Virus record (IMG/VR): IMGVR_UViG_3300034082_004296
Location: 112,211-176,210 of that record
DNA: 64,000 nt
Source: a virus
Strand: one strand, 5' to 3'
The stretch's first letter is position 1. The number at the start of each line of letters is the position of its first letter. The translations under genes were made by a program, and so were the position numbers. Positions 30,190-62,890 of the stretch are shown here, one piece after another. The notes under the pieces are model-generated. The model ran no database searches and was not told the origin of the DNA. It saw nothing but the letters and a program-made list of their open reading frames with translations.

Positions 30190-30195
30190 GGCTCA

Positions 30196-31119: not shown

Positions 31120-31162
31120 TTTTTAAATAAATAAGAAGATCTATCTTTAGGTATCGTATGTG

Positions 31163-49121: not shown

Positions 49122-49379
49122 TTGAAAAAAATACTTTCTTATTCAGAATATTTAAGCGACTCTCTAAAGGAGTCGCTTGATCCATTTGTAGAAAAAAGAT
49201 CAAAGTTTAGAATAGGTGACCAAGTAAAAGTTAAGGATCGAGTAGGTAAGGTGACAGCAATCGATAAAAAGCACTATCTTGTCCTAATTCAAGGCAAGAA
49301 TGAAAGAGTCGCTGAAGACCAAATCGAAGAGATGGGTCCAATAAAGAAAAAGAAACAGCCGACTAAAAATAAAAGATAA
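49122..49379 (+). CDS. Capsid-targeted candidate with KOW/SH3-like domain (85 aa)
   Basis: Starts with TTG. The N-terminus MKKILSYSEYLSDSLKES fits the shared tag, with L-K-E at residues 15-17 followed by Ser. The body (KFRIGDQVKVKDRVGKVTAI, then YLVLIQGKNERVAEDQIEEM) is a small SH3-like barrel similar to KOW-type domains. The C-terminus is strongly basic (KKKKQPTKNKR), suited to binding DNA in the head. A short basic, tagged protein recalls T4 internal proteins I-III. Ten bases after the tiny lipoprotein stop. Confidence 0.6.
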   Translation: MKKILSYSEYLSDSLKESLDPFVEKRSKFRIGDQVKVKDRVGKVTAIDKKHYLVLIQGKNERVAEDQIEEMGPIKKKKQPTKNKR

Positions 49380-49405
49380 AAGTTTTATTTTTGAGTTTTT
49401 CATAG

Positions 49406-49411
49406 TATAAT
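49406..49411 (+). promoter_or_regulatory. TATAAT -10-like in TAGTATAATAG
   Basis: CATAGTATAATAGC, 19 nt before the ATG at 49431; TAGTATAATAG is identical to the element at 37242-37252. Confidence 0.4.
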
Positions 49412-49430
49412 AGCTAAAAATTATATTATT

Positions 49431-49706
49431 ATGAAAAATTCAGTTGTAATCGGCCCGATCCAAAAGGCCAAGCCAGTAACAGAGCGTGCATCTATCCTAG
49501 ACCAGCGCTTGTCTAAGATGAAAGTAGGAAACTTTTTTGAAGTTTCAGGTCTCGCTACTAAAAAAGATATTCTTAATTTTAGAGCATCAATCAGTTATTT
49601 TTCCAAAAAGAACAATGTTCAGGTCTCAACTATGGTGACCAATGGAGTTCTTAAGGTACAAAGAGTAAAATCTATCAAAACTAAAGAAGTATCCAGAGTA
49701 AAATAA
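49431..49706 (+). CDS. Small phage protein of unknown function (91 aa)
   Basis: Composed of a basic N-terminal tail (IGPIQKAKPVTERASIL), a helix and KMKVGNFFEVSGLATKKDIL, then IRASISYFSKKNNVQVSTM-type sequence (here FRASISYFSKKNNVQVSTM) and a basic C-terminus. The segment 'V-G-x-F-F-E-V-S-G' with 'R-A-S-I-S-Y' is a pattern I recall in T4-like cyanophage hypothetical proteins, but no function follows from it. It has its own TATAAT-type element, unlike most neighbours. Confidence 0.5.
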   Translation: MKNSVVIGPIQKAKPVTERASILDQRLSKMKVGNFFEVSGLATKKDILNFRASISYFSKKNNVQVSTMVTNGVLKVQRVKSIKTKEVSRVK

Positions 49707-49723
49707 TCAATAAATACTTTTAA

Positions 49724-50524
49724 ATGGATACTCGAATAGATTTTAACACAGCTAAAAAGTTTGATCAACTTGAACTGATCGATTGGAAAACAAAATACGG
49801 AGATTTTCAGTTCTATATTCGTAAGGGACTAAATGAGATTAAGTATAATGTTGGCACAAACGTATCAAAAAGCCCAAAGAGCGGAGAATACATCAAGCCT
49901 CTTACCTCAGCTGCATACGGTCCTGAAATGGATGTAAATGCAGTTTTTAACCAGGAAGATACTTGGTTGGATATTGGCGGACATATCGGACTTTTTGCTA
50001 TACGAATGGCTCGACAGTTTCCAAAAATCAAAGAAGTCGTGGCATACGAGGCACTACCTCACAATGCATCATTTGCCTTGGAAAACATCAAGATAAATGG
50101 TGTAGATTCAGAGTGTAAAGTAATCCAAAAGGCAATCGTTCCAGGAGAGGAAGAGACAATTGATTTCTTTATCTCTAACGATTCTGGAAAGCACTCAATA
50201 CTTCCTATTCGAGGTAGAGATATTCTACATGTACCTGCAATTAACATCAATGATGCTATTTCCACTCATGGAGCAACTGCAATCAAGATGGATGTTGAGG
50301 GAGCCGAGTATGAATTGCTAAAGGCTGTCACAGATTGGTCTAATATTAGGGTGCTTATCATTGAATACCATTTTATGTATAAGCCACTTAAGACAAACCG
50401 AGTTCAAAAGTTTCAGGAAATAGTTTCAATCCTTGAAAATAATTTTGATGTTGTTCGTAAGATCGAGGCAGTTGAGTACGGTAAGAATTTTATCACTCAC
50501 ATTGTTGCTCTTAAAAATGATTAA
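49724..50524 (+). CDS. FkbM-family methyltransferase (266 aa)
   Basis: The SAM-binding motif I is TWLDIGGHIGLFAIRMARQF at about residue 81 (Asp-Ile-Gly-Gly-His-x-Gly). It is followed by acidic VVAYEALPHNASFALENIKI (motif II/III), and the diagnostic FkbM ending IKMDVEGAEYELLKAV near residue 190. Such enzymes O-methylate sugars or natural products. The place, two genes from a GT-B-like glycosyltransferase and in a window with three more glycan enzymes, suggests modification of a glycan on the virion, host or DNA. A strong terminator follows its stop. Confidence 0.75.
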   Translation: MDTRIDFNTAKKFDQLELIDWKTKYGDFQFYIRKGLNEIKYNVGTNVSKSPKSGEYIKPLTSAAYGPEMDVNAVFNQEDTWLDIGGHIGLFAIRMARQFPKIKEVVAYEALPHNASFALENIKINGVDSECKVIQKAIVPGEEETIDFFISNDSGKHSILPIRGRDILHVPAININDAISTHGATAIKMDVEGAEYELLKAVTDWSNIRVLIIEYHFMYKPLKTNRVQKFQEIVSILENNFDVVRKIEAVEYGKNFITHIVALKND

Positions 50525-50543
50525 GATCAAATAATTTAAAAAA

Positions 50544-50570
50544 GGGCATCTAACTAGGTGCCCTTTTTTT
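50544..50570 (+). terminator. Intrinsic terminator after FkbM gene
   Basis: Hairpin GGGCATCT, loop AACT, AGGTGCCC (one G-T pair), followed by seven T and preceded by six A, giving a possible bidirectional terminator. It separates the FkbM unit from the glycosyltransferase-like gene. Confidence 0.85.
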
Positions 50571-50607
50571 ATTTAAAACCTCACAAACGACTTTAAGTAA
50601 ATATTAT

Positions 50608-51672
50608 ATGAAAAGTTTATATGCATATTTTGGTCTACTTGACCTACATGATATTGATTCTCCAGGACATTCTCTATATCAAATAGGATTAGTTGATTCC
50701 TTAAGAGAATCATTTGGTGAAGAAAAATTTGATTTTTATTCGTATTATCCAGAAGAAGTAATTAAGTCGGCTTCTCTCAATAGCTTTCCAGAAACCGAGT
50801 TAGGGAAGCTTTTTTATAAGTACCGAATCGAACTATTTGACCATCCTATTCATAACATAGATGAAGTATTGGGATTAATTTCTCAAAAAGCTTATTCTAA
50901 ACTTTATTTAAAGGCTAGATTTAGAAACCTTTCGACTCTTTCTAAAAAATGGAAGGATGCTCGAGATTTTGATAAGATTATTGAATGTGCAATCGTTTCA
51001 GGTTACTCAAAGGACAGCATAATTATCTTAGATACAGATCTTTCTCTTTCTGATAAGTTTGTCGAGCAGAATAAAGACTTTGTGACCATCTTAATTCCAT
51101 CTATTGATTTTCCAGGAATATCTAACATGTTTCTTGTAGACTGCGTTAACTTGAACCTTTCACAACATAAAAAAGGAATATCTAGTGTATTTTATGGAAA
51201 TATTGATACTTCTAAATACAAGAGTGGAAACTCAAAAAGTGAAATCTTGCCGGACGCCCTTAAATGGATTGCTCGTAATCACTGGTCAAAGGATGAAGAT
51301 TTTCATCTAATCTGTAAGCGGAATGATTTTGATTCCCTTTCAAATAAGCTATCATCTACTCATCATGTAGATAGAAAAAATAGAGTTAAGATTTGGGAAA
51401 CGCTAGAATCTTCAAGAATAATGGTAAATATTACTAAAGAAAAATATAACGATCGACGATTTATTCCGGCTCGCATATTTGAGGCAATGATATTTGGCAT
51501 GATTCCAGTTTCATACAAGTTTGACTTTATGTGTCCAGCATTTTCATTTGATACTCTTGAAGATCTATTTGAAATCTATGCATATTTAGGTGAATGTGAC
51601 GAATTTGGACTAGAGCAAGCATATAAGCATTTTATAAACAGTTACCTAGACTACATGACATCTCCCCAATAA
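50608..51672 (+). CDS. GT-B-like glycosyltransferase (354 aa)
   Basis: The N-terminal half (SLYAYFGLLDLHDIDSPGHS, LLYQIGLVDSLRESF type sequence) is alpha/beta. The C-terminal half has the clearest sign: ESSRIMVNITKEKYND, then IPARIFEAMIFGMIPVSYKF, the 'R-x-x-E-a-x-x-x-G-x-x-P-v' donor-binding motif of GT-B (GT1/GT4/CgeB-like) enzymes. T4-like phages use GT-B enzymes to glucosylate DNA (alpha- and beta-GT), so modified DNA is an alternative to surface glycans. Isolated behind a terminator, with start ATG after an A/T-rich leader. Confidence 0.55.
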   Translation: MKSLYAYFGLLDLHDIDSPGHSLYQIGLVDSLRESFGEEKFDFYSYYPEEVIKSASLNSFPETELGKLFYKYRIELFDHPIHNIDEVLGLISQKAYSKLYLKARFRNLSTLSKKWKDARDFDKIIECAIVSGYSKDSIIILDTDLSLSDKFVEQNKDFVTILIPSIDFPGISNMFLVDCVNLNLSQHKKGISSVFYGNIDTSKYKSGNSKSEILPDALKWIARNHWSKDEDFHLICKRNDFDSLSNKLSSTHHVDRKNRVKIWETLESSRIMVNITKEKYNDRRFIPARIFEAMIFGMIPVSYKFDFMCPAFSFDTLEDLFEIYAYLGECDEFGLEQAYKHFINSYLDYMTSPQ

Positions 51673-51701
51673 GTTACACTAGATTAAAATAAGGTCGGTC
51701 T

Positions 51702-51712
51702 TATAAATAATA
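51702..51712 (+). promoter_or_regulatory. TATAAATAATA, exact T4 late promoter core
   Basis: TATAAATA, identical to the T4 late promoter core, followed by ATA, 18 nt before the ATG at 51731. Confidence 0.55.
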
Positions 51713-51730
51713 AAAAAAGCTGGCCCTTTT

Positions 51731-53029
51731 ATGAAACTTTTATTTTTAATCGTATTCCTACTTGGAATTTCAAGCATTGTTAACTCGCAATGTAACCAAT
51801 ATCAAATCTACGAAAGTTTTACAGGTACCTTACCGACACAAGGTGGAACTTGGACTGCTAATTCAATGATAGCAGTAACCTCTCCAGTACGTACTGGAAC
51901 CCATGCAATTGGATTTAATGGTTCAGGCGATTGGATCAGAACTCCACAAATGGCTAGTCCAGGAATATTAAATTTTTGGTACAGAAGAAGCTCTAATTCT
52001 ACTGCATGGACGCTAAATGTTCAGACTTCACCAAATGGAACCACTTGGACTACTAGAGGTTCAATTACCACAGTCACTACTACGTATCAACAGTATACCC
52101 TAAATATTGGAGCCCTTAGTCTAACTAATATTTTTATTAGGTTAATTGATGCTAGGTCCTCTGGTGCACATGAAAGATATGTTGAAGACTTATCAATAAC
52201 TTCAACAGCTGCATCGTCTAACATTTTACTTCCTATCCTAGGATCATGTACTCAGACTCTCAACTCAAGTCTAACATATAACTTAGCTGATGACGGTGGC
52301 CCAGCCGGGCCTATATCGACTGGGTATAGTAACAATGTTGATCGTACCCTAACTCTCACTCCATCCGACAATACACTAAAACTACAGTTATCATTTACCC
52401 AAATGGATCTAGAGACCAGTTATGATTATCTATATGTTTATGATGGACCAACTACTTCTGCTACTCTTTTGGCAACACTAAACGGAACAGTCATACCTTC
52501 TGACATAACTGCGACGAATTCGACAGGTCAACTCACGATCCGATGGACTAGCGATGTCTCTAACATAGGAGCTTGGGGAGGATTTATGGCTAGTGTAAAG
52601 TCAATATCTGTTGTGCCGTTACCTGTTGAATTACTCTATTTTGAAGGTGATGTATATCCCTCTTTTAATAGCTTGAAATGGGCGACAGCATCAGAGCAAA
52701 ACTCTTCACATTTTATCATTGAGCGTTCAACTGACGGATATTATTGGAGAGAGATAGTAAAAAAGCCAGCCGCTGAAAATTCTAATCAGCTCATAAATTA
52801 CTATTACTTGGATAATATCGAAGATTTTGTTTTGCATTATTATCGATTAATTCAATGTGATATTGATGGAACGAATATGATATATGGACCGATCGCTATA
52901 GATAACCGTGAAAAATCAAAAAAGGTGGTCAAGTGGATTAATATGTTTGGTCAAGAGGTTAGCGAATACGAAAACGGAGTGATCTTTATAGTATATGAAG
53001 ACGGATCAACTAAAAAAGTGATCCGATAA
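51731..53029 (+). CDS. Secreted CUB-domain protein with type IX-secretion-like C-terminus (432 aa)
   Basis: Residues 1-19 (KLLFLIVFLLGISSIVNSQ) form a clear signal peptide. Residues about 25-155 form a jelly-roll-like domain (YESFTG, LNFWYRRSSNSTAWTLNVQ). Residues about 175-290 are a CUB domain (YDYLYVYDGPTTSATLLATL, LTIRWTSDVSNIGAWGGF). Residues about 293-340 match the linker typical of Bacteroidota exoproteins (VPLPVELLYFEG, FIIERSTDGYYW). The end (VVKWINMFGQEVSEYENG and VYEDGSTKKVIR) matches the type IX secretion sorting domain. Probably acquired from a host. Exported through the host system; acts on the outside or is a virion adhesin. Confidence 0.75.
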   Translation: MKLLFLIVFLLGISSIVNSQCNQYQIYESFTGTLPTQGGTWTANSMIAVTSPVRTGTHAIGFNGSGDWIRTPQMASPGILNFWYRRSSNSTAWTLNVQTSPNGTTWTTRGSITTVTTTYQQYTLNIGALSLTNIFIRLIDARSSGAHERYVEDLSITSTAASSNILLPILGSCTQTLNSSLTYNLADDGGPAGPISTGYSNNVDRTLTLTPSDNTLKLQLSFTQMDLETSYDYLYVYDGPTTSATLLATLNGTVIPSDITATNSTGQLTIRWTSDVSNIGAWGGFMASVKSISVVPLPVELLYFEGDVYPSFNSLKWATASEQNSSHFIIERSTDGYYWREIVKKPAAENSNQLINYYYLDNIEDFVLHYYRLIQCDIDGTNMIYGPIAIDNREKSKKVVKWINMFGQEVSEYENGVIFIVYEDGSTKKVIR

Positions 53030-53040
53030 GATAAATAATA
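53030..53040 (+). promoter_or_regulatory. GATAAATAATA late-promoter-like
   Basis: GATAAATAATA, 14 nt before the ATG at 53055; starts at the last base of the preceding stop codon region. Confidence 0.5.
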
Positions 53041-53054
53041 AGAAAGATCTATTT

Positions 53055-54887
53055 ATGTCAAATATAACTCTAACTGAGAGTCAAGCTCAACAGTTCAGAA
53101 TGTTTAATTCAGTAATTGAATCAGCTGAACCTAGACTTTCAAGCATTCTTACTTTTGATAACCTAGTAAACGAAGCACATGCTTTGAGAGTAATTGAATC
53201 AAATATTCCAGAAAGCTTAAAATTTGATCTTCACCTTGATATGATTTTAAGAGACGGCAGCCGAAACGTTGCTGATTACTATAAATCAATGTCAAACGGA
53301 ACTAATTACATATTGGAAGCTGCTAGAAAAGTATTTCCAAATGACTCAAAGATAACTGAATCTATCGAAAGTTTCAAGGAATATATGGTCTCCATGTTAA
53401 ATGAAGACGCATTATCATTAGGCAATCCTATTATGTCTGCTGGTGGAATTGATACTGCTCTAGCCGGTGGACCTCTTCAACCAAGAGCAGGTAGCGGTTT
53501 TTGGTCAGTTCTCAAAGGCTTATGGAATGCAGTTACTGAAGGCGGATCTCTTATAGGAGTCGTCCATTTTATCATTGATATTGTTGGACTCTTTGGTGAT
53601 TTTATTTTTCCTGGAGTCGGAGTATGTGCTGACCTTATTAATGCTGCAATATATGCTATTCGTGGAGAGTGGATGCTATGTGCAATCTCAGTAATTGCAG
53701 CTGTTGTGATAGGTTTTGGTGACGCTCTTAAATTAGTTAAATTTGCAGCCAAACCTGCTGAAAAAGTAATGGTCGCTTGCGCTAAGGGTCAAACTAAAGA
53801 GGCTGCTGAGATGATGGCAAAAATGAGTGCTAAGGAGAGTGGAGGAGTCATAAAAATTCTTACACAAATCTTTGGAAATATTGGAGGTGCTCTAGGAAAA
53901 GCAACCTCACTTATTGGAAAACTGACACAAGGTATTGGTAAAGTAGTAGATTATATTCCAGGACTAGGTGCGCTTTTGAGACCAATATTCGATGGGATAG
54001 GAAAAGTCCTTACTAAGTTTGGGGAAAAAATGTCACTAGGTAGTGCCACCTTTAAACTAGCAACAACTTCAGCAAAAGAGGCTGCTGCCGTTACTATTCA
54101 TCAAGCTTTAAAAGGAGGCGGTGACATTATATTTGATGGTTCATGGGTAAAGGTAGTCAATAAGGAAGGCAAGCAAGTAGGAAAGTACCCATTCAAACAG
54201 TTTGAGAAGATAAGCGCTGATGAATTCATGGAAGCTGCAGTAAAAAAGGCTGGCGATCGAGCAAGTGCTCGAATCTTATATAAGAATGGTAAAGATTATG
54301 CTAAGGTCACCAAGACTCTTGAAAAAGACGCAGTTCAAGATTCTATGAGAAAAAGAGCATTTGAATATTTCGGTACTACTGCTTTTTGGAAGGGATCAAA
54401 GAGAATGTATAAAGACTTTATGTTTTTTGTCGGTAAGCAGATCTATAAGATAATATTTAAGACTGATTGGGTTGACGGTGCAAATAATAAATGGTCAGAA
54501 AGAGAAGTCGGGGGCCATGGCAACGGTGCATTCAACCATTGGATTGACAATCGGATAAAGGATGAGATGGATGAGAAAGGAGCAGTATACTTGCCTGCAT
54601 TGGACTTAGACTCAGAAGATCAAGAGGTTGTCGACAAGGTCACTGAATACCAAAACCATTATGCTAAACTTTACGGTCAACCTACAATCATGAATGTTGT
54701 TACCAAGACATATGATAAGGAAGGGGCCACCAAAGAATATGCAGCCTTTTTTGATGATATCGCATCTGGAAAAGTTAAGAGGGGCGGGACTGGTGATAAA
54801 GTTGACCACTCAATATCTGATACTCTTACTGAGGGTCGTGCGCCAATTGTAAAAAAGATAATGAATTTTTCAGATTTTAACCGATGA
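53055..54887 (+). CDS. Pre-toxin-like membrane-active protein, possible ejection protein (610 aa)
   Basis: The N-terminus has L-T-E at 6-8 and VIES at 21-24, possible prohead-protease sites. Residues about 160-240 are strongly hydrophobic and Gly-rich, with FGDFIFPGVGVCADLINAAI and IRGEWMLCAISVIAAVVIGF, closely resembling the pre-toxin domain of polymorphic toxins ('F-I-P-G-V-G-x-x-A-D-x-I-N-A-x-I-y'). A Gly/Ile-rich region (LIGKLTQGIGKVVDYIPGLG) follows. The C-terminus is basic then charged and ends MNFSDFNR. It may form a membrane pore for DNA entry or carry a toxin. Coupled to the next gene (ATGA). Confidence 0.55.
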   Translation: MSNITLTESQAQQFRMFNSVIESAEPRLSSILTFDNLVNEAHALRVIESNIPESLKFDLHLDMILRDGSRNVADYYKSMSNGTNYILEAARKVFPNDSKITESIESFKEYMVSMLNEDALSLGNPIMSAGGIDTALAGGPLQPRAGSGFWSVLKGLWNAVTEGGSLIGVVHFIIDIVGLFGDFIFPGVGVCADLINAAIYAIRGEWMLCAISVIAAVVIGFGDALKLVKFAAKPAEKVMVACAKGQTKEAAEMMAKMSAKESGGVIKILTQIFGNIGGALGKATSLIGKLTQGIGKVVDYIPGLGALLRPIFDGIGKVLTKFGEKMSLGSATFKLATTSAKEAAAVTIHQALKGGGDIIFDGSWVKVVNKEGKQVGKYPFKQFEKISADEFMEAAVKKAGDRASARILYKNGKDYAKVTKTLEKDAVQDSMRKRAFEYFGTTAFWKGSKRMYKDFMFFVGKQIYKIIFKTDWVDGANNKWSEREVGGHGNGAFNHWIDNRIKDEMDEKGAVYLPALDLDSEDQEVVDKVTEYQNHYAKLYGQPTIMNVVTKTYDKEGATKEYAAFFDDIASGKVKRGGTGDKVDHSISDTLTEGRAPIVKKIMNFSDFNR

Positions 54888-55732
54888 AATTAAAAAACTT
54901 TAAGAGTTACTCTGAATACTATTCAAAGGATCCAAATAACTTTGAAAAAAAGATAGCCCTAGCATCATCTGGTAGCCAGCACCCTCTATTTGAAAACTTT
55001 TCCACGTTTGATGACGCAATAACTGCTACAAAGTCCGTGCCCGTAATAATTTGGGGAAACTTTAGGTTTTCAAGCATGAACGAAAATTTTTGTAGTGTTG
55101 TCTATAATCAGGGAAATATTCCTTCAAAAAAGGAGATATCGACTGTCTTCAAGGAAGAGGATTTTGTACCAAAGGTAGTAAAGGATAGGTCTTTAATAAA
55201 AAAGATGAGCTTTCCGATCACTGGAGTTTTTGGAGAAGAGGAAGAAGACTTTAAAACATATGGACAGTTTAAAAAGTCCGAGAGATTTTTTGATCACTTT
55301 AAGGAGAAACTTGTACCTACGTCTAAATTTGAGGTGCTAGCAGTCGACGGTAAACCCGTACATGCACATAAGAAGATAATTAATAACTCATTCGATATTG
55401 ATCTTACTCGATGGAAACATTTAGGGGAGGCAGAATCAATCTGTAAAAAGATCCATTCTAAGTATTCTCCCGATTTTTATGTGGTCTCTCTGCTTGAAGC
55501 AAATGGCCAACTTTACCTAGATTCGATAACTAGAAACATTGACCTCACCCCAGTACAGAGTGTAAGGTTATACGAGGCAGCCTATCGAAAATATTATGAG
55601 ACTGATTTGCCTTACTGGTTTAGAAAAAAGGTTTTTGAGGATCACGTAAAGCCATATTATATCAAGAAGTACTATGATTCTCTGCTAATTAAGCCGACTG
55701 GTACAATCGACTATGAAAAATACTTAAACTAA
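54884..55732 (+). CDS. ATP-grasp-like protein with tag-like N-terminus (282 aa)
   Basis: The N-terminus MKLKNFKSYSEYYSKD has the aromatic spacing of the tag (F-x-x-Y-x-x-Y) but no clear L-x-E. The body follows the ATP-grasp order: VPVIIWGNFRFSS, VPKVVKDRSLIKKMSFPITG, then FEVLAVDGKPVHAHKKI (the usual 'R-v-l-v-i-g-g-k-v-v-a-a-x-k-R'). SICKKIHSKYSPDFYVVSLL and ANGQLYLDSITRNIDLTPV follow in place of 'l-g-l-d-f-x-g-V-D' and 'y-v-l-E-x-N'. Metal-binding Glu and Asn may be changed (LDSITRN). Family assignment is by eye. Stop and next start overlap (TAATG). Confidence 0.4.
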   Translation: MKLKNFKSYSEYYSKDPNNFEKKIALASSGSQHPLFENFSTFDDAITATKSVPVIIWGNFRFSSMNENFCSVVYNQGNIPSKKEISTVFKEEDFVPKVVKDRSLIKKMSFPITGVFGEEEEDFKTYGQFKKSERFFDHFKEKLVPTSKFEVLAVDGKPVHAHKKIINNSFDIDLTRWKHLGEAESICKKIHSKYSPDFYVVSLLEANGQLYLDSITRNIDLTPVQSVRLYEAAYRKYYETDLPYWFRKKVFEDHVKPYYIKKYYDSLLIKPTGTIDYEKYLN

Positions 55733-55920
55733 TGCTGATCATTAATTGTAAGGGTAAAAAGATAGAGTGGGTTCTTAAGAAATACAGACAACGAGTAGAC
55801 TCTACTGGACAGTTGGATGAGCTTAGACAGAGAAAGGAGTTTGAAAAACCAAGTGTCAAAAAGAGAAAAATAAAGCAGAGAGCGCAATATAAATCTAAAA
55901 ATAACGATGCTAAGATTTAA
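55732..55920 (+). CDS. rpsU: Ribosomal protein bS21
   Basis: 62 residues, full family length. IEWVLKKYRQRVDSTGQLDE fits the bS21 N-terminal helix, and LRQRKEFEKPSVKKRKIKQR matches the diagnostic 'L-R-x-R-x-x-x-E-K-P-S-x-x-R-K' segment. bS21 joins the small subunit next to the anti-Shine-Dalgarno end of 16S rRNA. In Bacteroidota bS21 is involved in hiding that sequence, so a phage copy could retune start-site choice. Phage-encoded bS21 is known from cultivated and metagenomic phages. The start overlaps the previous stop (TAATG); the next gene begins inside it (14-base overlap). Confidence 0.9.
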   Translation: MLIINCKGKKIEWVLKKYRQRVDSTGQLDELRQRKEFEKPSVKKRKIKQRAQYKSKNNDAKI

Positions 55921-56401
55921 AGACTTTTTAAACGAGCGATGGGGCAAAGACATGTTACCTAAAGATAGAAGAGCGGCTGGCGTAGCAATCGTTTGGGAAA
56001 ACCGAATACTTTTGGTCCATCCAACAAATTCTTCCTGGAAAAAAGCAACATGTGGAATACCCAAGGGAAAGCTTGAACCTGGTGAGGATCCAGTGTCTGG
56101 TGCTCTTCGTGAGCTTGAGGAAGAGACAGGAATAGTATTGGACGAGAGCCAGCTTGACCCGGAATCGAATAGCGTTGATTTCTATAATGCAAAGGGAGAG
56201 CCTGATGGGTCCTTAATCTATTTTGTATGTACAATATCTGATCTTGCTGAAATAGGTCTGGATTCAGATCGTGTGCCTAAGGGCCAACTCCAGCTAGAAG
56301 AGGTGGATTGGGGAAAGTTTGTTAGTGCTGAAGAAGCATATCCAATATGTACTAGAAACCAGCTAATCATCCTAGATCGGCACATTACTTTGAATAAATA
56401 A
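55907..56401 (+). CDS. NUDIX hydrolase with capsid-targeting-like N-terminus (164 aa)
   Basis: Residues 54-76 are a perfect Nudix box (GKLEPGEDPVSGAL then RELEEETGI: G-x5-E-x7-R-E-U-x-E-E-x-G-U). The body strand VAIVWENRILLVHPTNSSW precedes it. The enzyme class hydrolyses nucleoside diphosphates linked to another group (NTPs, ADP-ribose, capped RNA, dinucleotide polyphosphates); substrate not evident. The N-terminus MLRFKDFLNERWGK has the tag layout, with L-N-E at 8-10. This would make it a packaged enzyme delivered with the DNA. Overlaps bS21 by 14 bases. Confidence 0.85.
   Translation: MLRFKDFLNERWGKDMLPKDRRAAGVAIVWENRILLVHPTNSSWKKATCGIPKGKLEPGEDPVSGALRELEEETGIVLDESQLDPESNSVDFYNAKGEPDGSLIYFVCTISDLAEIGLDSDRVPKGQLQLEEVDWGKFVSAEEAYPICTRNQLIILDRHITLNK
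56393..56401 (+). promoter_or_regulatory. AATAAATAA late-promoter-like
   Basis: AATAAATAA at the end of the NUDIX gene, 20 nt before the GTG at 56422. Confidence 0.45.
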
Positions 56402-56421
56402 CTAAAACATCCGATATTTTC

Positions 56422-57765
56422 GTGAGACCTTTAAACTTTAATACCTGGAATTCTTTAAATGAGACTGTTGCATTCGATCCCAGTGCAAACTATCCAGACA
56501 AGACATTTGGTTATGCTTCCGGTTCAGTCGATGCAGCTAAAGTAGTTGCCGGCGGCGCTGGAGGAAATTGGGGCGGGTCCATGTCAAGAGCACTATGGTT
56601 TGCTCGAGTAGCCGATGATTGGGCCAAGGCCAATGGAAAAACCGGATCACTAATTACTTCTCAAAAAAGATCTAGACAAAAGACTGATTCAGGCAATACA
56701 TCAGACCATTATGAGGGCAATTCGGATGCATATGCAGTCGATATCGCAGCTGCTGGTGCTGAAGGAGACGAGATACTTGCGTATATTATGCAAAAGTTTG
56801 GATACCCAGAATATAAAGGAGGTTCATGGTTTAACATAACAATCAATGGTTATCGATACCAGGTAGGCTGGAGAGTCAAAAACCATTTTGATCACATCCA
56901 TGTAGGGGTAAAAAGAGTAGTTGGCGGAAAGGATACCCCGACTGGAAAAAAGGGAACATTTGGTGAAAAGATGGCGAGTAACTCAGAAGTAGTTGCATGG
57001 TTTGCTAAGCATGCTTCGAATGTCACACTGAGTGGCGCTTTCATTGATAACCTAATAAAGGATGATCCTGAAAAGCCTAAGAAACTAGAATGGTTTAAGA
57101 AAAAATTCAATGTCACTGATTTAGGTGATCCAGTTAAACCTAAATCATCTAATGATATTGTAATAACTGCACCTGATTGGTGGATATCAATGACTAAAAA
57201 AGTAATAGATAATTTTGAAGGCGGTTATTGGAATCATTGGGAGTGTAAAAATCATCCATATTCAGCAATGTATGCAAATTCTGGAGAGACCTTATTTGGC
57301 TTAGACCGGAAGGCTGGCCAAATAGAGAAGATTTGCCCTGCCGGTAAAAAATTCTTTGCAATTATTGATGGAGAAAAAGCAACACTAAAGGATAAGTTTT
57401 GTGAAGTATGGAAATATAACTATCGTGGCGGAAAGTTAGAGGACGAATTAAAGCTTCTTGCTGCAGAAACGATGTGGTTCTCATACAATGCAAATATGGA
57501 AGCTTTTTCAAAACATCCGGAAACTAAGAATAGGATTGAAAAAAATAAGGGCTTGGTTTTACACATGTCATATGCTTGCTGGAATGGTCCAGGATTCTTC
57601 CAAAAGTTTGTCAAAGCTCTTGAAAAAGGGGTAAAAGAGGGAAAATCAGACAAACAACTCATTGAGATTGCTAAGACTACTAGAGCAGCCGCTCTGTCAG
57701 GTTACTGGGCAAAAGGATCAGCTACTGTAAATAAGTTAATTGATAAAGAGGCAGGGCTCGCATAA
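56422..57765 (+). CDS. Two-domain peptidoglycan hydrolase with tag-like N-terminus (447 aa)
   Basis: Starts with GTG. The N-terminus RPLNFNTWNSLNETVAF has L-N-E at 12-14, as in the shared tag. Residues about 90-170 resemble M15/LAS zinc peptidases (D-Ala-D-Ala carboxypeptidase type): SDHYEGNSDAYAVDIA, then HFDHIHVGVK with the second His pair. Residues about 245-440 contain an EGGYWNHWECKNHPYSAMYA segment and SGETLFGLDRK, like the Glu of GH108/lysozyme-type muramidases ('E-G-G-Y'). Together they would cut both peptide and glycan. It could be the endolysin, but the tag points to a virion enzyme that eases DNA entry. Confidence 0.65.
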   Translation: MRPLNFNTWNSLNETVAFDPSANYPDKTFGYASGSVDAAKVVAGGAGGNWGGSMSRALWFARVADDWAKANGKTGSLITSQKRSRQKTDSGNTSDHYEGNSDAYAVDIAAAGAEGDEILAYIMQKFGYPEYKGGSWFNITINGYRYQVGWRVKNHFDHIHVGVKRVVGGKDTPTGKKGTFGEKMASNSEVVAWFAKHASNVTLSGAFIDNLIKDDPEKPKKLEWFKKKFNVTDLGDPVKPKSSNDIVITAPDWWISMTKKVIDNFEGGYWNHWECKNHPYSAMYANSGETLFGLDRKAGQIEKICPAGKKFFAIIDGEKATLKDKFCEVWKYNYRGGKLEDELKLLAAETMWFSYNANMEAFSKHPETKNRIEKNKGLVLHMSYACWNGPGFFQKFVKALEKGVKEGKSDKQLIEIAKTTRAAALSGYWAKGSATVNKLIDKEAGLA

Positions 57766-57826
57766 TTTCAAACTATTTTAAAACTTTATCCAAGACATTG
57801 AGTTTAATATTCTAAAATTAAACATT

Positions 57827-58315
57827 ATGTCTGAAGAAAAAACAACAACCGAAGAACAAGAAGTATTGATTGAAGAGACTCAAGATGCCATGCCAGAAGG
57901 AGTACATTTCTTAGAGGAACCTCAAGCAGAACTTAGTGAATTAGATGCTGCCATTCAAGCTAGAATGGGACATTTTCCAATTGAGATCTCGCCAGCAGAT
58001 CTAAAATACATTAAGAACCTACTAAACAATAAGATCGAGTGGAAAGGGCCAAACGAAGCATACTTGATGCTAATGTCACTTCTTTCTATCTCTAGCGAGC
58101 TTAAAGAAAGAGATTCTCAATCAAACGAAAGAGTGTCAATACACCTTCCTTCTACTACTCTTGAGTCAATCAACTTTTTCTTAAATCGAGTTACTGGTAA
58201 GGGTGAAGAATCTGCACATAGATTATTTGCAGTATCTATGTTGCTTCGTCCTGCAATGGAGCAAATTAAAAAACTTGACGAAGTTATTGAAAAATTACAA
58301 TCTGAGGAAAAATAA
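57827..58315 (+). CDS. Hypothetical acidic protein (162 aa)
   Basis: The first 55 residues are acidic and mostly disordered (MSEEKTTTEEQEVLIEETQD). The rest is helical (YIKNLLNNKIEWKGPNEAYL, LMSLLSISSELKERD), followed by another helix, FFLNRVTGKGEESAHRLF. Highly acidic proteins in this place recall T4 prohead core components, but there is no recognisable match. Leader is A/T-rich (TAAAATTAAACATT) before the ATG. Confidence 0.45.
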   Translation: MSEEKTTTEEQEVLIEETQDAMPEGVHFLEEPQAELSELDAAIQARMGHFPIEISPADLKYIKNLLNNKIEWKGPNEAYLMLMSLLSISSELKERDSQSNERVSIHLPSTTLESINFFLNRVTGKGEESAHRLFAVSMLLRPAMEQIKKLDEVIEKLQSEEK

Positions 58316-58326
58316 ATCATTACTTA

Positions 58327-58337
58327 GATAAATAATA
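58327..58337 (+). promoter_or_regulatory. GATAAATAATA late-promoter-like
   Basis: GATAAATAATA, 16 nt before the ATG at 58354. Confidence 0.55.
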
Positions 58338-58353
58338 AAAAAGTTTATTAAAG

Positions 58354-58719
58354 ATGAAAGTAAAAAACTTTGCAGGGTTTATGAAAACTCGCAGAATGAA
58401 CGAAAGCGACGGCATGGAAGGTGCTGAAGACACTGGATACGGAACTAATCCTGAAGAAGAAATGAACATGGGATATTATGGGTATGGCGCCAATCCTGAA
58501 GAAGAGGAAGAGCCTGCTGAAGGTGAAGAGGGAGAAGGTGAAGAAGGAGCAGAAGAGGAATTAACTCTTGAAGACCTTAAAGCCATGATCGATGACCTAA
58601 CTGAGAGAGTTAAGAAACTTGAACCAGAAGAGGAAGGTGAAGAGGGAGAAGAAGGTGAGGAAGGTGAGGAGCCTGCTGAAGGAGAAGCTAAACCTGCAGA
58701 AAAGGAAGCCAACATTTAA
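58354..58719 (+). CDS. Acidic prohead-core-like protein (121 aa)
   Basis: The N-terminus MKVKNFAGFMKTRRMNES resembles the shared tag (M-N-E at 15-17, then Ser). After Gly/Tyr-rich residues (GYGTNPEEEMNMGYYGYGAN) the protein is one of the most acidic here: long Glu/Gly runs flanking the helix LEDLKAMIDDLTERVKKLEP, which also appears in the 59045 gene. The pattern (tag, acidic, short coiled coil) resembles T4 prohead core proteins such as gp67, which are cut by the gp21 protease. A strong terminator follows its stop. Confidence 0.6.
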   Translation: MKVKNFAGFMKTRRMNESDGMEGAEDTGYGTNPEEEMNMGYYGYGANPEEEEEPAEGEEGEGEEGAEEELTLEDLKAMIDDLTERVKKLEPEEEGEEGEEGEEGEEPAEGEAKPAEKEANI

Positions 58720-58740
58720 TTAAAAGCGTATCATACACTT

Positions 58741-58768
58741 AAAGCGAATGGAAACATTCGCTTTTTTT
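58741..58768 (+). terminator. Intrinsic terminator with GAAA loop
   Basis: Perfect 10-bp stem AAAGCGAATG / CATTCGCTTT with loop GAAA, followed by T-run. It lies 22 bases after the stop at 58719. Confidence 0.9.
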
Positions 58769-58773
58769 GTCAA

Positions 58774-58782
58774 GATAAATAA
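58774..58782 (+). promoter_or_regulatory. GATAAATAA late-promoter-like
   Basis: GATAAATAA, 18 nt before the ATG at 58801, directly after the terminator. Confidence 0.55.
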
Positions 58783-58800
58783 CAAAAAATAAAATATATT

Positions 58801-59064
58801 ATGTCTGCAAAAAAATTTAATAATTTTATGAAAATCGGCCGTTTAATTGAATCTCAAGATGGAATGGAAATAGGATATTTTCCAAAACCAGAAGACTGGT
58901 CTAAGGAAATGAGCAGATCTGCCAGTATTTATGGAGCAATGGATGAACCTGAAGAGTTAACCTTAAATAGTCTTAATTCAAAGATTAATGATTTAGAATC
59001 AGAAATAGCTAGGCTATCATCAAGACTTGAACAATTAGAATCTAATGGGAATAACGATTATTAA
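58801..59064 (+). CDS. Small tagged coiled-coil protein (87 aa)
   Basis: The N-terminus MSAKKFNNFMKIGRLIES fits the tag with L-I-E at 15-17 then Ser. The middle has a Gly/Tyr-rich segment (YGAMDEPEELT), then a coiled coil (LNSKINDLESEIARLSSRLE). Layout matches the 58354 and 59045 proteins: tag, acidic/Tyr linker, C-terminal coiled coil. Probable head core component. Overlaps the next gene by 20 bases. Confidence 0.55.
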   Translation: MSAKKFNNFMKIGRLIESQDGMEIGYFPKPEDWSKEMSRSASIYGAMDEPEELTLNSLNSKINDLESEIARLSSRLEQLESNGNNDY

Positions 59065-59374
59065 TTTTGATCAATTCGTAACTTCCATTAAAACTAACGA
59101 AAATTCAGACCTTGACTGGAGCGATAAGAATTGGGACGAAGCGGGCATGGATGCCGAAAATCCACCTAACTCTGGTCTGGAAGGAACTAGCGCAGAAACA
59201 ATGGATTATACTGCAGGTGACTATGGAGAAACCAGTGATGAAGTAGAAATTGAGGAAGATGAGACTGAGGTTGATCGTACAGCCAAATCTAAGGAGGAGA
59301 CCGATATGATAAAAGCCTTAATTGACGACCTTACTGATCGTGTATCAAACCTTGAAAAAATAAAACAAACGTAA
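59045..59374 (+). CDS. Small acidic tagged coiled-coil protein (109 aa)
   Basis: The N-terminus MGITIINFDQFVTSIKTNE resembles the tag (N-F-x-x-F), but the site is I-x-x-x-E rather than L-x-E. An acidic Gly/Tyr-rich middle (YTAGDYGETSDEVEIEEDE) leads to a C-terminal helix IKALIDDLTDRVSNLEKI, which closely matches the helix of the 58354 protein (IDDLTERVKKLE). A likely paralogue in a head-core set. It begins inside the preceding gene. Confidence 0.55.
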   Translation: MGITIINFDQFVTSIKTNENSDLDWSDKNWDEAGMDAENPPNSGLEGTSAETMDYTAGDYGETSDEVEIEEDETEVDRTAKSKEETDMIKALIDDLTDRVSNLEKIKQT

Positions 59375-59382
59375 TTTCTTAA

Positions 59383-59820
59383 ATGTGTCAGTTAATAAGA
59401 GTAAAGAGCATTCCTCTTTTTGAGGAATATTGTAGAAAAAACGATATCGATGGTAAAGAGATAGAAGCGATTGTATCTGACATCCCATTAAAATTAAAAG
59501 TTGCTTCAACTCAACAGAGCCAAATTAAGGGTTATAGTGGAGCCATGGACGAACCTTCTGAAAATACTGGGATGCTTTTTATATATGATGACGATCAGCC
59601 TCTTTCTTTTTGGATGAAGGACGTCAAGTTTCCTCTAGACATCATCTTTTTTGACAGCTATATGCGATACATTGACCACCATACAATGGATCCAGGAAAT
59701 GACGTAGACGAGAAAGACCTTCCGCAATACCATTCTAAAGAACCTGCAAGATTTGCAGTAGAACTTCCTGGCGGTTGGTGCGAAAAAAACATGACACCAG
59801 ATTGTAAACTTTCCTTTTAA
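59383..59820 (+). CDS. DUF192-family protein (145 aa)
   Basis: The core pattern ENTGMLFIYDDDQPLSFWMK followed by DVKFPLDIIFFDSYMRYI is the DUF192 signature ('G-M-L-F', 'F-W-M-k-n-t', 'P-L-D-i-i-F-i-d'). The end AVELPGGWCEKN matches 'v-l-E-l-p-a-G'. Function of the family is not known. There is no signal peptide, unlike most bacterial members. A phage copy is unusual; it may have come from a host. It follows the acidic tagged set after 8 bases and could be co-expressed late. Confidence 0.75.
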   Translation: MCQLIRVKSIPLFEEYCRKNDIDGKEIEAIVSDIPLKLKVASTQQSQIKGYSGAMDEPSENTGMLFIYDDDQPLSFWMKDVKFPLDIIFFDSYMRYIDHHTMDPGNDVDEKDLPQYHSKEPARFAVELPGGWCEKNMTPDCKLSF

Positions 59821-59828
59821 TTTAGTAC

Positions 59829-59834
59829 TATAAC
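59829..59834 (+). promoter_or_regulatory. TATAAC -10-like before ligase
   Basis: TTAGTACTATAACTAAAAGGAAAA before the ATG at 59849; the motif is followed by an AAAAGGA stretch that can serve as a Shine-Dalgarno, rare in this window. Marks the start of an early-type unit. Confidence 0.35.
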
Positions 59835-59848
59835 TAAAAGGAAAAACT

Positions 59849-61150
59849 ATGCACCATACCCAAGATTTTAAAGAACTTCGAGAATTCGTCAATGAGATGA
59901 ATTCGTCAAACTCTACAAATCACAAAGTTGATATTTTAACCAAATATCAATATCATCCATTCATTAAGAGGATCCTATTTTATACATATCATCCATATTG
60001 GAACTTTGGTGTGACTTCAGATAATCTTAAAAAACGCGAAGATCTTATTGCTCCAATGGAAGTATATGATGACTTTTTTATGATGCTTGACGATTTTAAT
60101 AAGCGCAACTTGACGGGTCACTCTGCGATTGAAGCAATAAATCGTTTTATTAAGGATTATGAAGAGTGGGCAGATCTAATCTACCAAATAATCGATCGTA
60201 ACCTTGAGACCCGAGCGACAGTCACTCTAATTAATCGAGTAAATCCTAAATTTATTCCAACTTTTGAGGTTGCCTTGGCTCATGACGCGGCTAAAGTAAA
60301 GGGCGTAGATATCTTCGACGGTACCTGGTTCGTTTCTAGAAAACTAGACGGAGTCCGATGTATCTGCTTTATTCAAGATGGCAAAGCACGATTCTTTTCA
60401 CGTAACGGCAAGGAGTTCCTAACTCTTGGAAAAGTTGCAAAGGAAATCAAACGCTTAGGGATCACTGATCTTGTTTTAGATGGTGAACTATGTCTTATGA
60501 ATGAAGATGGCTCAGATGACTTCCAGGGAATCCTGAAACAGATACAACGTAAGGACCATACTATCGAGAACCCAAGATACCAAATTTTTGATATCCTACT
60601 GCCTGAAGAATTTGCTGGTGACCTTGATTCTTACCTATTTTCTTCTAGAATAGAAGGCCGAACTCAATGGCTAAATCTAGACGATTCAAATATTTTGGAA
60701 ATGTTACCTCAAGTTAGAATCACTGATGAAGATGCACTTGAGGAGCTAAAGGCCCAATCTAAGGATTCTAATTGGGAAGGACTTATCGCTAGGCGAGATA
60801 CTCGATACAAATCGGGTCGATCTAAAGACATGTTAAAAATCAAAGAGTTTTTTGATGCGGAATATGTGGTGACTGGCCTGATCATGGGACCGCAACGAGT
60901 AATCGTAAACGGTAAAGAGATTGAAGAGGAGATGTTAAGCGCTGTCACAATAGATCATGAAGGATCTCAAGTTCAAGTAGGAAGCGGCTTCACAATAGAA
61001 CAACGTCGTCACTATTATCAAAATATGGGAGAGATTATGGGAGCTACTATTACTGTGCAGTATTTTGAAACTACGACCGACCAGCATGGAAACCATTCTT
61101 TAAGATTTCCAGTATTTAAAGGGAACCATGGAAAAACTCGCAGTATATAA
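59849..61150 (+). CDS. ATP-dependent DNA ligase (433 aa)
   Basis: Motif I is KLDGVR at residues 165-170, with K165 the likely adenylated Lys. Motif III-type FFSRNGKEFLTLGK and motif IV-type LVLDGELCLMNEDG follow. Then WEGLIARRDTRYKSGRSKDM and LKIKEFFDAEYVVTG give the 'E-G-x-x-x-R' and 'K-x-K' endings of nucleotidyltransferase ligases. It seals nicks during phage DNA replication and repair. An N-terminal domain of about 140 residues precedes the core, and its length is close to T4 gp30 (487 aa). Begins an early-type operon. Confidence 0.85.
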   Translation: MHHTQDFKELREFVNEMNSSNSTNHKVDILTKYQYHPFIKRILFYTYHPYWNFGVTSDNLKKREDLIAPMEVYDDFFMMLDDFNKRNLTGHSAIEAINRFIKDYEEWADLIYQIIDRNLETRATVTLINRVNPKFIPTFEVALAHDAAKVKGVDIFDGTWFVSRKLDGVRCICFIQDGKARFFSRNGKEFLTLGKVAKEIKRLGITDLVLDGELCLMNEDGSDDFQGILKQIQRKDHTIENPRYQIFDILLPEEFAGDLDSYLFSSRIEGRTQWLNLDDSNILEMLPQVRITDEDALEELKAQSKDSNWEGLIARRDTRYKSGRSKDMLKIKEFFDAEYVVTGLIMGPQRVIVNGKEIEEEMLSAVTIDHEGSQVQVGSGFTIEQRRHYYQNMGEIMGATITVQYFETTTDQHGNHSLRFPVFKGNHGKTRSI

Positions 61151-61457
61151 TAGCATGTCATTCAATAAGAAAAGAGTACCCGAATTAAGTGAACTAAAGA
61201 GAAAACATGCAGAACTTGGAGATGCTTATCTAGAGCAGTTCCTATCTGGTGACGCAATAATTGGTCCAATTGATTCTGGTAAATATTTAGATGATTATAT
61301 CAAATCAAAGGATCCAAATAAACTTGAACCAATACCTCAAGTACTCTCTCTTCTTATCGAAGCCAAGGAATTGCTCCTAAATAGAGGCAGTTCAAAATAC
61401 ATGGAAGATTTTAATGATCTACAAAAAGTAATTAATTCAATAACAAATAAACAGTAA
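61128..61457 (+). CDS. Hypothetical protein (109 aa)
   Basis: The ATG at 61128 overlaps the ligase end by 23 bases; the ATG at 61155 (MSFNKKRVPELSEL) is an alternative start 4 bases after the ligase stop. Helical, with KKRVPELSELKRKHAELGDA and an ordered end. No motif recognised. Packed in the ligase operon, so probably a DNA-metabolism-timed gene. Confidence 0.45.
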   Translation: MEKLAVYNSMSFNKKRVPELSELKRKHAELGDAYLEQFLSGDAIIGPIDSGKYLDDYIKSKDPNKLEPIPQVLSLLIEAKELLLNRGSSKYMEDFNDLQKVINSITNKQ

Positions 61458-61460
61458 ATT

Positions 61461-61661
61461 ATGTATTACATCGCAAAAGTAAAGTTTGAGACAATTGATG
61501 ATCAAACAGGCCGACCTAAAAAGATTTATGAACAGTATCTAGTTGATGCTGGATCAATCTCTGAAGCAGAAGAGCTGCTAAAAGAGAGATTTAAAGATTC
61601 AATTGCTGAGTTTTCAGTAGTGAGTGTAGTTGAGTCTAAAATCATGGGAGTAGTTAAGTAA
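61461..61661 (+). CDS. Small hypothetical protein (66 aa)
   Basis: The pattern YYIAKVKFETIDDQTGRPKK, then EQYLVDAGSISEAEELLKER and IAEFSVVSVVESKIMGVV, is a compact alpha/beta protein with 'E-A-E-x-L-l' helix, as in small phage proteins that recur near replication genes. No function known. Begins 3 bases after the previous stop and 2 bases before the next start. Confidence 0.5.
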   Translation: MYYIAKVKFETIDDQTGRPKKIYEQYLVDAGSISEAEELLKERFKDSIAEFSVVSVVESKIMGVVK

Positions 61662-61663
61662 TT

Positions 61664-61966
61664 ATGAAAAGGATGCCTACCCGAACCTCTGAAAAAGTAT
61701 ATGATGTGCTTTGTAAGTTTGCAGAAGCAAGTCCAAACCATTATGAAAAGGAGACATTTGTCTTTCATTTTGGAGTATTAAGCACCACCTCTTCCAAATA
61801 TAAGTTAAACTGTATGGATGATGCACAACGCTCATTTATATGTAATGATGAAGGAAAGATGTGGGTTGATGGAAGCAATGCAGGTAGAGTCAATTCGATC
61901 CTACGTAAGATCTCAGAAGAAATGGTTTCCCAAAGAGTCAGCGATGAAGTTCAACGTTCCAATTGA
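61664..61966 (+). CDS. Hypothetical protein (100 aa)
   Basis: The sequence (RTSEKVYDVLCKFAEASPNH, then YEKETFVFHFGV) has no motif I recognise. The end (ILRKISEEMVSQRVSDEV) is helical. It overlaps the next gene by 23 bases in another frame, so its last residues share DNA with that start. Part of the ligase operon. Confidence 0.45.
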   Translation: MKRMPTRTSEKVYDVLCKFAEASPNHYEKETFVFHFGVLSTTSSKYKLNCMDDAQRSFICNDEGKMWVDGSNAGRVNSILRKISEEMVSQRVSDEVQRSN

Positions 61967-62372
61967 GAAAGATACCCTTTTTGCACAGGAGCTTTTTGCT
62001 CTCATTTCAGAACACGTATCTGACCTTGCTGATGAGCATGAGAAACTTCCAAACAAGATCATTTTTAGTGGAGCTCTTGGCAAAGAGCTCCATGATTTTA
62101 TCCTAGACAAAGAGTGGAATTTTAAAGGCTTTGGTCTTGATCGGGTGAATGGAATAGTAGATTCAGTCACCTTCAAGTACGATAAACCCTTTACTCAGAC
62201 TGAGAATAGGTTCGGTACAACATTTGAAGGAGGAACCTTACACGACAAGACAATAAACGGGATTCCTGGACCGGTGACGGCACAAAAGATAATCTCATCA
62301 TATTCTCAACCTAGTTTCTTAATAGAGAGAACAGTTAGACCCGAAAAACGAATATTATTAAGTAGACCATGA
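61944..62372 (+). CDS. Hypothetical protein (142 aa)
   Basis: I chose the ATG at 61944 (MKFNVPIEKDTLFAQELFAL) because the longer in-frame start at 61818 would bury most of the preceding gene. The protein has helical segments at the N-terminus, then FSGALGKELHDFIL and KGFGLDRVNGIVDSVTFKYD, with a basic C-terminus (IERTVRPEKRILLSRP). No motif recognised. Stop overlaps the next start (ATGA). Confidence 0.5.
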   Translation: MKFNVPIEKDTLFAQELFALISEHVSDLADEHEKLPNKIIFSGALGKELHDFILDKEWNFKGFGLDRVNGIVDSVTFKYDKPFTQTENRFGTTFEGGTLHDKTINGIPGPVTAQKIISSYSQPSFLIERTVRPEKRILLSRP

Positions 62373-62890
62373 GCACAGTTCGATTTATCGCTGATCTTCA
62401 TCTTGGCCACGCTAACATGGCCAAACATCGAGGTTTTTCTTCAGTCGAGGAGCACGATGAGTACCTAATAAAAAAGTGGAACTCTATTGTGGTGAAGAGA
62501 GACTTGACATATATCCTAGGCGACGTGACAATGGAATCCAAAAAAGAGTATCCAGTATTGGATCGTCTACATGGTCGAAAGATAGTGGTTGGTGGCAATC
62601 ATGATAAACCAAATCACACTAAGGAATTACTAAATCATGTAGAATCGATAGTCGGCATGGTGCAGTACAAAGGAATCTTTTTGACCCACTGCCCTGTGCA
62701 TCCAAGGGAAATGGAATACCGAATCAAACATAACATTCACGGCCACATCCATGAAAACAGGATAGAGCATAAGTTTCGTCTTTTTGGAGTAGCCCTATTT
62801 GCAATACCCGATCGACGATATCACTGTGTCTCGTGTGAGCATATTGATTATACTCCAGTGACCTTAAAAGAATTAGGAATATTACGATGA
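62369..62890 (+). CDS. Calcineurin-like metallophosphoesterase (173 aa)
   Basis: All metal-site motifs are present: ADLHLGH (residues 8-14), GDVT (51-54), GGNHDK (75-80), LTHCP (105-109) and IHGHIHE (123-129). The fold binds two metal ions and hydrolyses phosphoester bonds. Small single-domain members like this are common in phages and act on nucleotides, nucleic acid ends or proteins; the substrate here is unknown. Coupled by ATGA overlap to both neighbours, in the ligase operon. Confidence 0.85.
   Translation: MSTVRFIADLHLGHANMAKHRGFSSVEEHDEYLIKKWNSIVVKRDLTYILGDVTMESKKEYPVLDRLHGRKIVVGGNHDKPNHTKELLNHVESIVGMVQYKGIFLTHCPVHPREMEYRIKHNIHGHIHENRIEHKFRLFGVALFAIPDRRYHCVSCEHIDYTPVTLKELGILR

Follow-up and report, generated by a model that had tools for sequence, protein, structure and literature searches.

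Phage-encoded cargo of the type IX secretion system (T9SS) has been described in Cryophage, where it was called 'a unique occurrence' (PMC7468147). For the sorting signal itself, the closest described counterparts are the short CTDs of Prevotella intermedia. These are 40–55 aa long and fold into one three-stranded sheet, whose strands correspond to numbers 3, 6 and 7 of the long CTDs. Gly is invariant in motifs B and D, motif E is basic, and motifs B and D lie 1–6 aa apart, as against 10–17 aa in long CTDs; such short CTDs have been proven as cargo signals in one species only (PMC11969387). P. gingivalis refuses some foreign CTDs, so that a signal must suit its host, and for RgpB an intact seven-stranded fold matters (PMC11285876). 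At the other end of exported proteins, the Q-rule states that cleavage by signal peptidase I leaves most substrates with an N-terminal Gln, later turned into pyroglutamate by cyclisation, and the rule holds in Bacteroidota and not in related phyla (PMC5837995, PMC10653852). Phage proteins that obey this rule have been noted in Porphyromonas phages (PMC10367356).

A predicted cargo gene in a phage genome

The window analysed here is a stretch of 64,000 nt covering positions 112211-176210 of a linear IMG/VR record of 176,210 bp. On its + strand, an ORF with an ATG start (51731-53029) encodes a protein of 432 aa that we consider likely to be a phage cargo protein for the type IX secretion system of the host. 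The features of the locus are as follows.

51703-51710, + strand: promoter-like ATAAATAA element, inside TATAAATAATAAAA, about 20 nt 5' of the adhesin start codon
51731-53029, + strand: CUB adhesin gene, product predicted to be secreted, with short type IX tail, 432 aa
51731-51787, + strand: predicted signal peptide, aa 1-19, cleavage NS/QC, Q-rule Gln
51788-52225, + strand: jelly-roll-like (MAM / galactose-binding-like) domain, aa 20-165, with weak sequence support
52238-52606, + strand: CUB domain, aa 170-292
52619-52903, + strand: FnIII-like domain, 'LPVEL..F..LKWATASE..S..F.IERS', aa 297-391
52910-53026, + strand: candidate short type IX-like C-terminal signal, aa 394-432, EKSKKVVKWINMFGQEVSEYENGVIFIVYEDGSTKKVIR, 39 residues

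The gene belongs to a phage, as a sequence-only reading of this DNA had assumed. Also present in the window are genes for a large terminase (phrog_5989, E 1.5e-53), for a baseplate wedge protein (phrog_219, E 1.2e-27) and for a DNA ligase, and the 13,890 bp from 49137 to 63026, which include the adhesin gene, recur as a 100% identical copy on a second IMG/VR contig (L002). Gene order flanking the adhesin is preserved on both sides in two further phages, L027 and L030; these syntenic phage flanks, together with the second, identical contig, ruled out bacterial contamination. PADLOC assigned no defence family to the adhesin gene.

Just 5' of the adhesin, also on the + strand, lie genes for an FkbM-type methyltransferase (49724-50524) and for a protein of glycosyltransferase-like look (50608-51672). 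Both are kept in L027 and L030, the FkbM proteins being 91-92% identical. Elsewhere in the window, a minus-strand cassette (26001-32482) with partly raised G+C (about 41% vs 36%) shows UspA1-type adhesin head repeats in one or two of its proteins and probably encodes receptor-binding fibres.

The N-terminus, MKLLFLIVFLLGISSIVNS/QCNQ, agrees with the signal peptide proposed earlier. It ends in a Q-rule site, and in a simple scan the adhesin is the sole ORF of the window in which a hydrophobic N-terminus is followed by such a site. Q20 is invariant in an alignment of 30 sequences. When adhesins and other tail-bearing phage proteins are pooled, 70 of 72 distinct N-termini show an [ASGTC]/Q site; an internal start and a broken frame account for the remaining two. 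A Sec signal peptide with the Q-rule, one of the marks by which T9SS cargo is recognized, is seen both in the sequence and in the family tally. A lipoprotein signal was ruled out: the residue preceding the Cys is Gln, and there is no lipobox.

The CUB-type domain of the earlier reading holds up, since PF00431 matches above the Pfam cut-off (29.3 bits vs 21.4; E 1.1e-6) and the predicted fold matches as well, with TM-scores of 0.82 to the neuropilin-2 CUB domain 6gh8 and 0.80 to 2wno. A profile of the family matches cubilin at E 6.6e-19. Three residues of this domain, E228, D232 and D275, are invariant among relatives and, to judge from cCUB domains, might make up a Ca2+ site. For the jelly-roll-like domain, the PF22633 match falls below threshold, Foldseek matches are multi-domain proteins with such folds, and the first 40 residues of the region were modelled poorly. 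AlphaFold with 30 family members gave a mean pLDDT of 78, and 89.6 for the C-terminal part alone. In Bacteroidota proteins, the LPVEL FnIII-like linker domain stands ahead of canonical T9SS signals, and bacterial proteins matching this region frequently carry the annotation 'T9SS type A sorting domain-containing protein'. No enzyme domain came up in Pfam and PHROG searches with the window protein. It may plausibly be adhesive, given its CUB and jelly-roll folds and the GEVED, Ig-like and galactose-binding-like modules of other tail-bearing proteins.

A probable miniature C-terminal signal

The C-terminus had been called typical of T9SS substrates, a description that did not survive. The window protein is matched neither by TIGR04183 (E up to 10) nor by PF18962 (E up to 1), and PF18962 also has no match in the whole phage record at E≤10. 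The seven-stranded 3+4 beta-sandwich is absent; instead, AlphaFold gives three strands after the FnIII-like domain (aa 399-404, 417-422 and 427-431; pLDDT about 90), forming a 39-aa variant with motifs B (WINMFGQEV), D (GVIFIVYE) and E (KKVIR). Tails of the family measure about 39-45 aa, and the modelled one is a single three-stranded sheet. The Gly of motifs B and D is invariant across 36 aligned tails, motif D mostly reads Gx[FILV] in place of the usual GxY, and the B-D distance is 5-6 aa in 56 of 59 phage tails, as counted with a pattern written after the alignment had been viewed.

When the phage-tail profile was compared with one built from 28 canonical CTDs, the two aligned in register at motif B with a probability of 32% (E 4.8e-4), reversed-sequence controls reaching 0.2%; the E-values refer to single templates, and taken alone this similarity would be weak, below the usual confidence level. 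The tail profile gave nothing against the FnIII-like domain or against reversed profiles. Foldseek with a model of the FnIII-like domain and tail returned FnIII-like matches only, with no T9SS CTD among them, and the C-terminal profile found nothing significant among the sequences of solved structures. In most of the pairs that could be counted, dN is well under dS in the FnIII-like domain and tail, indicating that this part of the protein is under purifying selection.

Whole short tails were not found in 296 Bacteroidota genomes at E≤1e-4; PF18962 proteins are present in 48 of 61 Bacteroidota genomes. A tail-only profile searched against 395 Bacteroidota genomes yielded weak matches only (best 24 bits). 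Half of the 30 matches inspected (15/30) lie in C-terminal ends: 3 belong to short tails, and the other 12 fall within canonical PNP-type CTDs, where they align in register at motif B. For example, a bacterial GH16 + CBM48-like enzyme (L196:376-1629) ends in a short type IX-like tail, ...KKELIGVFDVNGRKVESVENQLLFYIYSDGSVEKKLIFEY, which indicates that short signals are not restricted to Prevotella or phages. A guessed Prevotella-type short-CTD consensus, used without a positive control, retrieved nothing from the 296 genomes. How seldom the short tail turns up in bacteria is thus a sample result, for about 300-400 Bacteroidota species and with a first-pass filter that limits the number of candidates.

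Exchange of short and long C-termini

At one viral locus, L038, the same adhesin carries a canonical PNP-type CTD, with scores that fall short of the cut-offs of both models (PF18962 20 bits, E 8.6e-4; TIGR04183 15.2 bits). The subtilisin adjoining it also has a canonical CTD, which matches the full PF18962 profile at E 1.5e-4 with 22.4 bits, below the cut-off of 27. Orthologous subtilisins next to short-tail adhesins have short ends, such as NIVVIDVNGKTTNLDNALPGMYFIVDNNIIVKRIYKN, and in the alignment the short form is without the PNP region and the B-D loop. Subtilisin genes (PF00082, E 1.9e-31) lie 99-530 bp from the adhesin at 15 loci, from which 9 distinct proteins were aligned; one of the loci is the following.

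L007:8356-9786: subtilisin-like (S8) protease directly beside the adhesin

The same protease occurs in L006, L013, L033, L034, L037, L038, L039, L051, L052, L055, L056, L059, L062 and L063. These partner proteins share a Q-rule signal peptide and conserved S8 blocks, including G[TS]SFA[AT]P, and end in a short or, in L038, a long CTD.

We read the tail as a reduced type IX signal because of its profile similarity to canonical CTDs, the bacterial matches and its short-CTD anatomy, and also because of the swap on the L038 adhesin, the swap on the subtilisin and the T9SS-annotated relatives of the FnIII-like domain. Judged on such comparisons, Sec export followed by recognition of the tail by the host type IX machinery is highly probable. 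The proposal that the phage borrows host secretion is thus well supported by anatomy and comparison, with the amendment that a miniature variant takes the place of the usual signal.

In the mechanism that we propose, the gene would be transcribed during infection from a promoter element common to virion genes. The product would, with good reason, be expected to leave the cytoplasm by Sec, to be cut by signal peptidase I and to have its exposed Gln converted to pyroglutamate. The tail very probably acts as a CTD reduced to the counterparts of strands 3, 6 and 7, with motifs B, D and E; the host translocon or the PorV shuttle would recognize it, and the protein would cross the outer membrane to be anchored or released. 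Outside the cell, the jelly-roll and CUB domains might conceivably bind a glycan or a protein.

Spread and exchange among phages

A protein search of IMG/VR placed the adhesin at 56 viral loci, which fall into single-linkage groups of 30, 17 and 6 plus three alone; the 17-locus group is loosely chained and may contain several lineages. The adhesin lineages have few or no other genes in common. The tail alone occurs in at least 124 viral stretches, 80 of which were retrieved for comparison. Across these 80 stretches and the adhesin set, several N-terminal modules precede the LPVEL domain and tail, among them a long 'SSYTFGTSTGTYTP' beta protein, MAM-like short proteins and Ig_7-bearing proteins, and GEVED is found in long adhesins (PF20009, E 8.4e-15). 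Two putative cargo genes of L058 (5669-6826 and 10001-11299) differ in their N-modules and share the LPVEL domain and short tail.

Matches among 50,697 phage records came only from four metagenomic huge phages and not from isolated phages. These genomes of 462-642 kb (L015, L016, L017 and L018, which are LR745206, LR756504, LR756502 and LR756500) encode LPVEL-type C-termini. TIGR04183 is matched above its cut-off in L018 (32.7 bits), and L015 has a short tail, with a possible frameshift between 4688-5962 and 5929-6366. The T9SS-type cargo of the four huge phages carries no annotation.

Most neighbour genes in L027 and L030 are 56-92% identical to those of the window, but their adhesins only 57% and 53%. 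The nearest relatives of the adhesin lie in other phage lineages (L008 and L003, 76% over the N-module), and a tree joining the adhesins of the window, L027 and L030 is rejected (AU p 1.5e-106, log-likelihood 113 lower). Because identity is low in the syntenic phages, nearer relatives lie elsewhere and the joint tree fails, the adhesin allele at the window site was probably replaced via recombination with other phages. More broadly, we lean towards the view that unrelated Bacteroidota phages trade a secretion cassette composed of a Q-rule signal peptide, a swappable binding or protease module, the LPVEL linker and a miniature tag. Such a cassette would give them a common secretome delivered via the host type IX system in lytic infection, with the tag as a phage-favoured minimal signal.

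Expression and possible role

The sequence-only reading had put the gene under an exact late promoter core, TATAAATA, which is the T4 late consensus and overlaps ATAAATAA. This 8-mer has 6 copies in the window and the adhesin is the only gene with a copy upstream, which is no enrichment: 8-mers of the same composition average 1.1 within 60 nt upstream. The exact core, being no more frequent than chance, was dropped and replaced by ATAAATAA, which is enriched and has one copy at the adhesin gene. Of its 23 copies in the window, 16 lie 8-70 nt upstream of genes, the baseplate gene included, against a mean of 4.8 for permutations of the element. The sites precede (+) genes starting at 833, 16986, 19930, 32599, 39863, 42567, 47418, 51731, 53055, 56422, 58354 and 58801 and (-) genes starting at 27089 and 31089. 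They are frequently located within GATAAATAA, followed by A-rich sequence, and TATAAATAA also precedes the syntenic counterparts of the adhesin gene in L027 and L030. The element is apparently a T4-late-like promoter of the window phage, and because it is common to virion genes, we infer that the adhesin would be expressed late. At other loci, a ATATTTATTA-like sequence is located 20-60 nt 5' of the adhesin start codon (L007, L008, L011, L013, L022 and L028) and recurs likewise upstream of the adhesin in L029, L044, L052, L053 and L058; it is possibly the promoter of other phage lineages.

Protein export from a cell that is being killed is, to our knowledge, not something usually ascribed to phages. 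As possible purposes, the sequence-only reading had suggested blocked re-infection, action on neighbours or a coat on released particles. The likeliest target of the exported adhesin would be the surfaces of infected and neighbouring cells, where receptors would be masked or altered and progeny and rivals would not re-adsorb; in related phages, the secreted subtilisin encoded alongside would also cut surface proteins. Superinfection exclusion or progeny release, with the adhesin (elsewhere the protease) masking or cutting receptors, is the purpose that we favour, as a tentative choice among several. It would accord with the promoter element common to virion genes, the predicted surface delivery, the binding domains and, at 15 related loci, the adjoining secreted subtilisin with conserved S8 motifs, whereas the record of the window phage, which may be incomplete, contains no subtilisin. 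That the purpose is modification of the host surface by masking, cross-linking or protease cutting, with lowered re-adsorption as the result, is accordingly a suggestion on which we would not insist.

Somewhat more doubtful is an auxiliary secretome, in which the T9SS cargo feeds or equips the infected cell or attacks its neighbours, as proposed for Cryophage. The Cryophage cargo consists of glycoside hydrolases and a PA14 protein (PMC7468147), and the GEVED, Ig-like and galactose-binding-like modules of other tail-bearing proteins could serve similar ends, but the window protein has no enzyme domain, and feeding is of less use when a lytically infected cell has so little time left. Surface modification is preferred over feeding or attack because the element common to virion genes suggests late expression and because the window protein has binding folds only.

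Export might also stop at the periplasm or at the inner face of the outer membrane, with the tail as a fold stabiliser and not a T9SS signal. The tail has no PNP strand and fails both curated T9SS models, and the proof that short CTDs direct cargo comes from a single species (PMC11969387). This reading is nonetheless improbable: the tail is always C-terminal with a basic end, keeps motifs B, D and E, is common to unrelated N-modules and stands in for the canonical signal in two protein families.

Very unlikely is a virion protein, that is, a head or tail decoration or adhesin in which the tail would serve for assembly or as an anchor on the virion. Phage particles commonly display Ig-like and FnIII folds, the promoter element is shared with virion genes, and in one adhesin group (L007) the major head protein, phrog_138, is encoded two genes upstream. 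Against this, essentially every member has a cleavable Sec signal that follows the Q-rule, whereas virions assemble in the cytoplasm, and the tail is exchanged for a canonical T9SS signal in L038 and on the protease. A PHROG search with the window protein gave no match at E≤0.01, hence no structural PHROG, and gene neighbourhoods of the adhesin vary between lineages. A gene phylogeny nested among phage tail proteins, with bacterial relatives lacking, had been named as a finding that would tell against secretion; the relatives found are predicted secreted proteins and include L019 and T9SS-annotated plasmid proteins, and no virion kinship was seen.

L019, from a Chitinophagaceae MAG, is the only bacterial match to span nearly all of the protein (aa 1-415, at 36% identity). 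The match lies in a 2,852-aa protein with another C-terminus and without the short tail, and a wider bacterial profile search returned chiefly single CUB domains. Recent accidental capture of a bacterial cargo gene with no phage-adapted function would account for domains having bacterial relatives such as L019, but is scarcely credible given 56 viral loci against that single relative, itself without the short tail, purifying selection, and presence across lineages with exchange between phages.

If secretion through the host type IX system is correct, a family so widely exchanged would mean that lytic infection of Bacteroidota remodels the cell exterior, and the phage set of adhesin and protease offers an effect on adsorption that can be measured. 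The tail, as a type IX signal of about 40 residues that occurs in nature, would also show how little the machine needs, a point at issue between PMC3120885, PMC11285876 and PMC11969387; such miniature signals may not be functional in every T9SS.

Comparison with described systems

In the open-access papers searched, we found no report of short-tag phage cargo, of this adhesin family or of its protease partner. The CUB fold is that of animal CUB proteins (PF00431; neuropilin, cubilin), including acidic residues at the possible Ca2+ site, but the phage domain is without the paired cysteines of its animal counterparts. One database entry, A0A6J5NMN5 (uncultured Caudovirales, 'CUB domain', 658 aa), is 46% identical over the structural match and evidently a family member; it was deposited with a domain name and without a stated function.

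The canonical type A domain (TIGR04183 / PF18962) and the phage tail are both C-terminal and share GxxV in motif B, the G of motif D and a basic end, whereas the about 75 aa, the seven strands and the PNP strand of the canonical domain are missing from the phage tail. By published description, the tails resemble the short CTDs of P. intermedia in their three strands, motifs B, D and E and short B-D distance. They differ in having a [VI]Y[DE]DG[ST] turn and in following an LPVEL FnIII-like domain; furthermore, the P. intermedia signals are found on bacterial cargo, and in the phage tails a cleavage site is not identifiable.

Among phages, crAss-like cluster 2 members, likewise Bacteroidota phages, have sorting-domain ORFs near head genes; the proteins in question are BACON proteins, and neither a short tail nor a function is described there (PMC6949934). 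Closest is Cryophage, also a case of Bacteroidota phage genes with type IX sorting signals, presumed use of the host T9SS and variability between phages (PMC7468147). Its cargo comprises an endoglucanase, GH39 and PA14 proteins with type A domains in one 76-kb phage (PMC7468147), whereas here several phage lineages carry a CUB/jelly-roll adhesin that ends in a miniature signal. The principle of phage T9SS cargo is thus already known, and the miniature tag, the breadth of the family, its exchange and the protease partner appear to be new.
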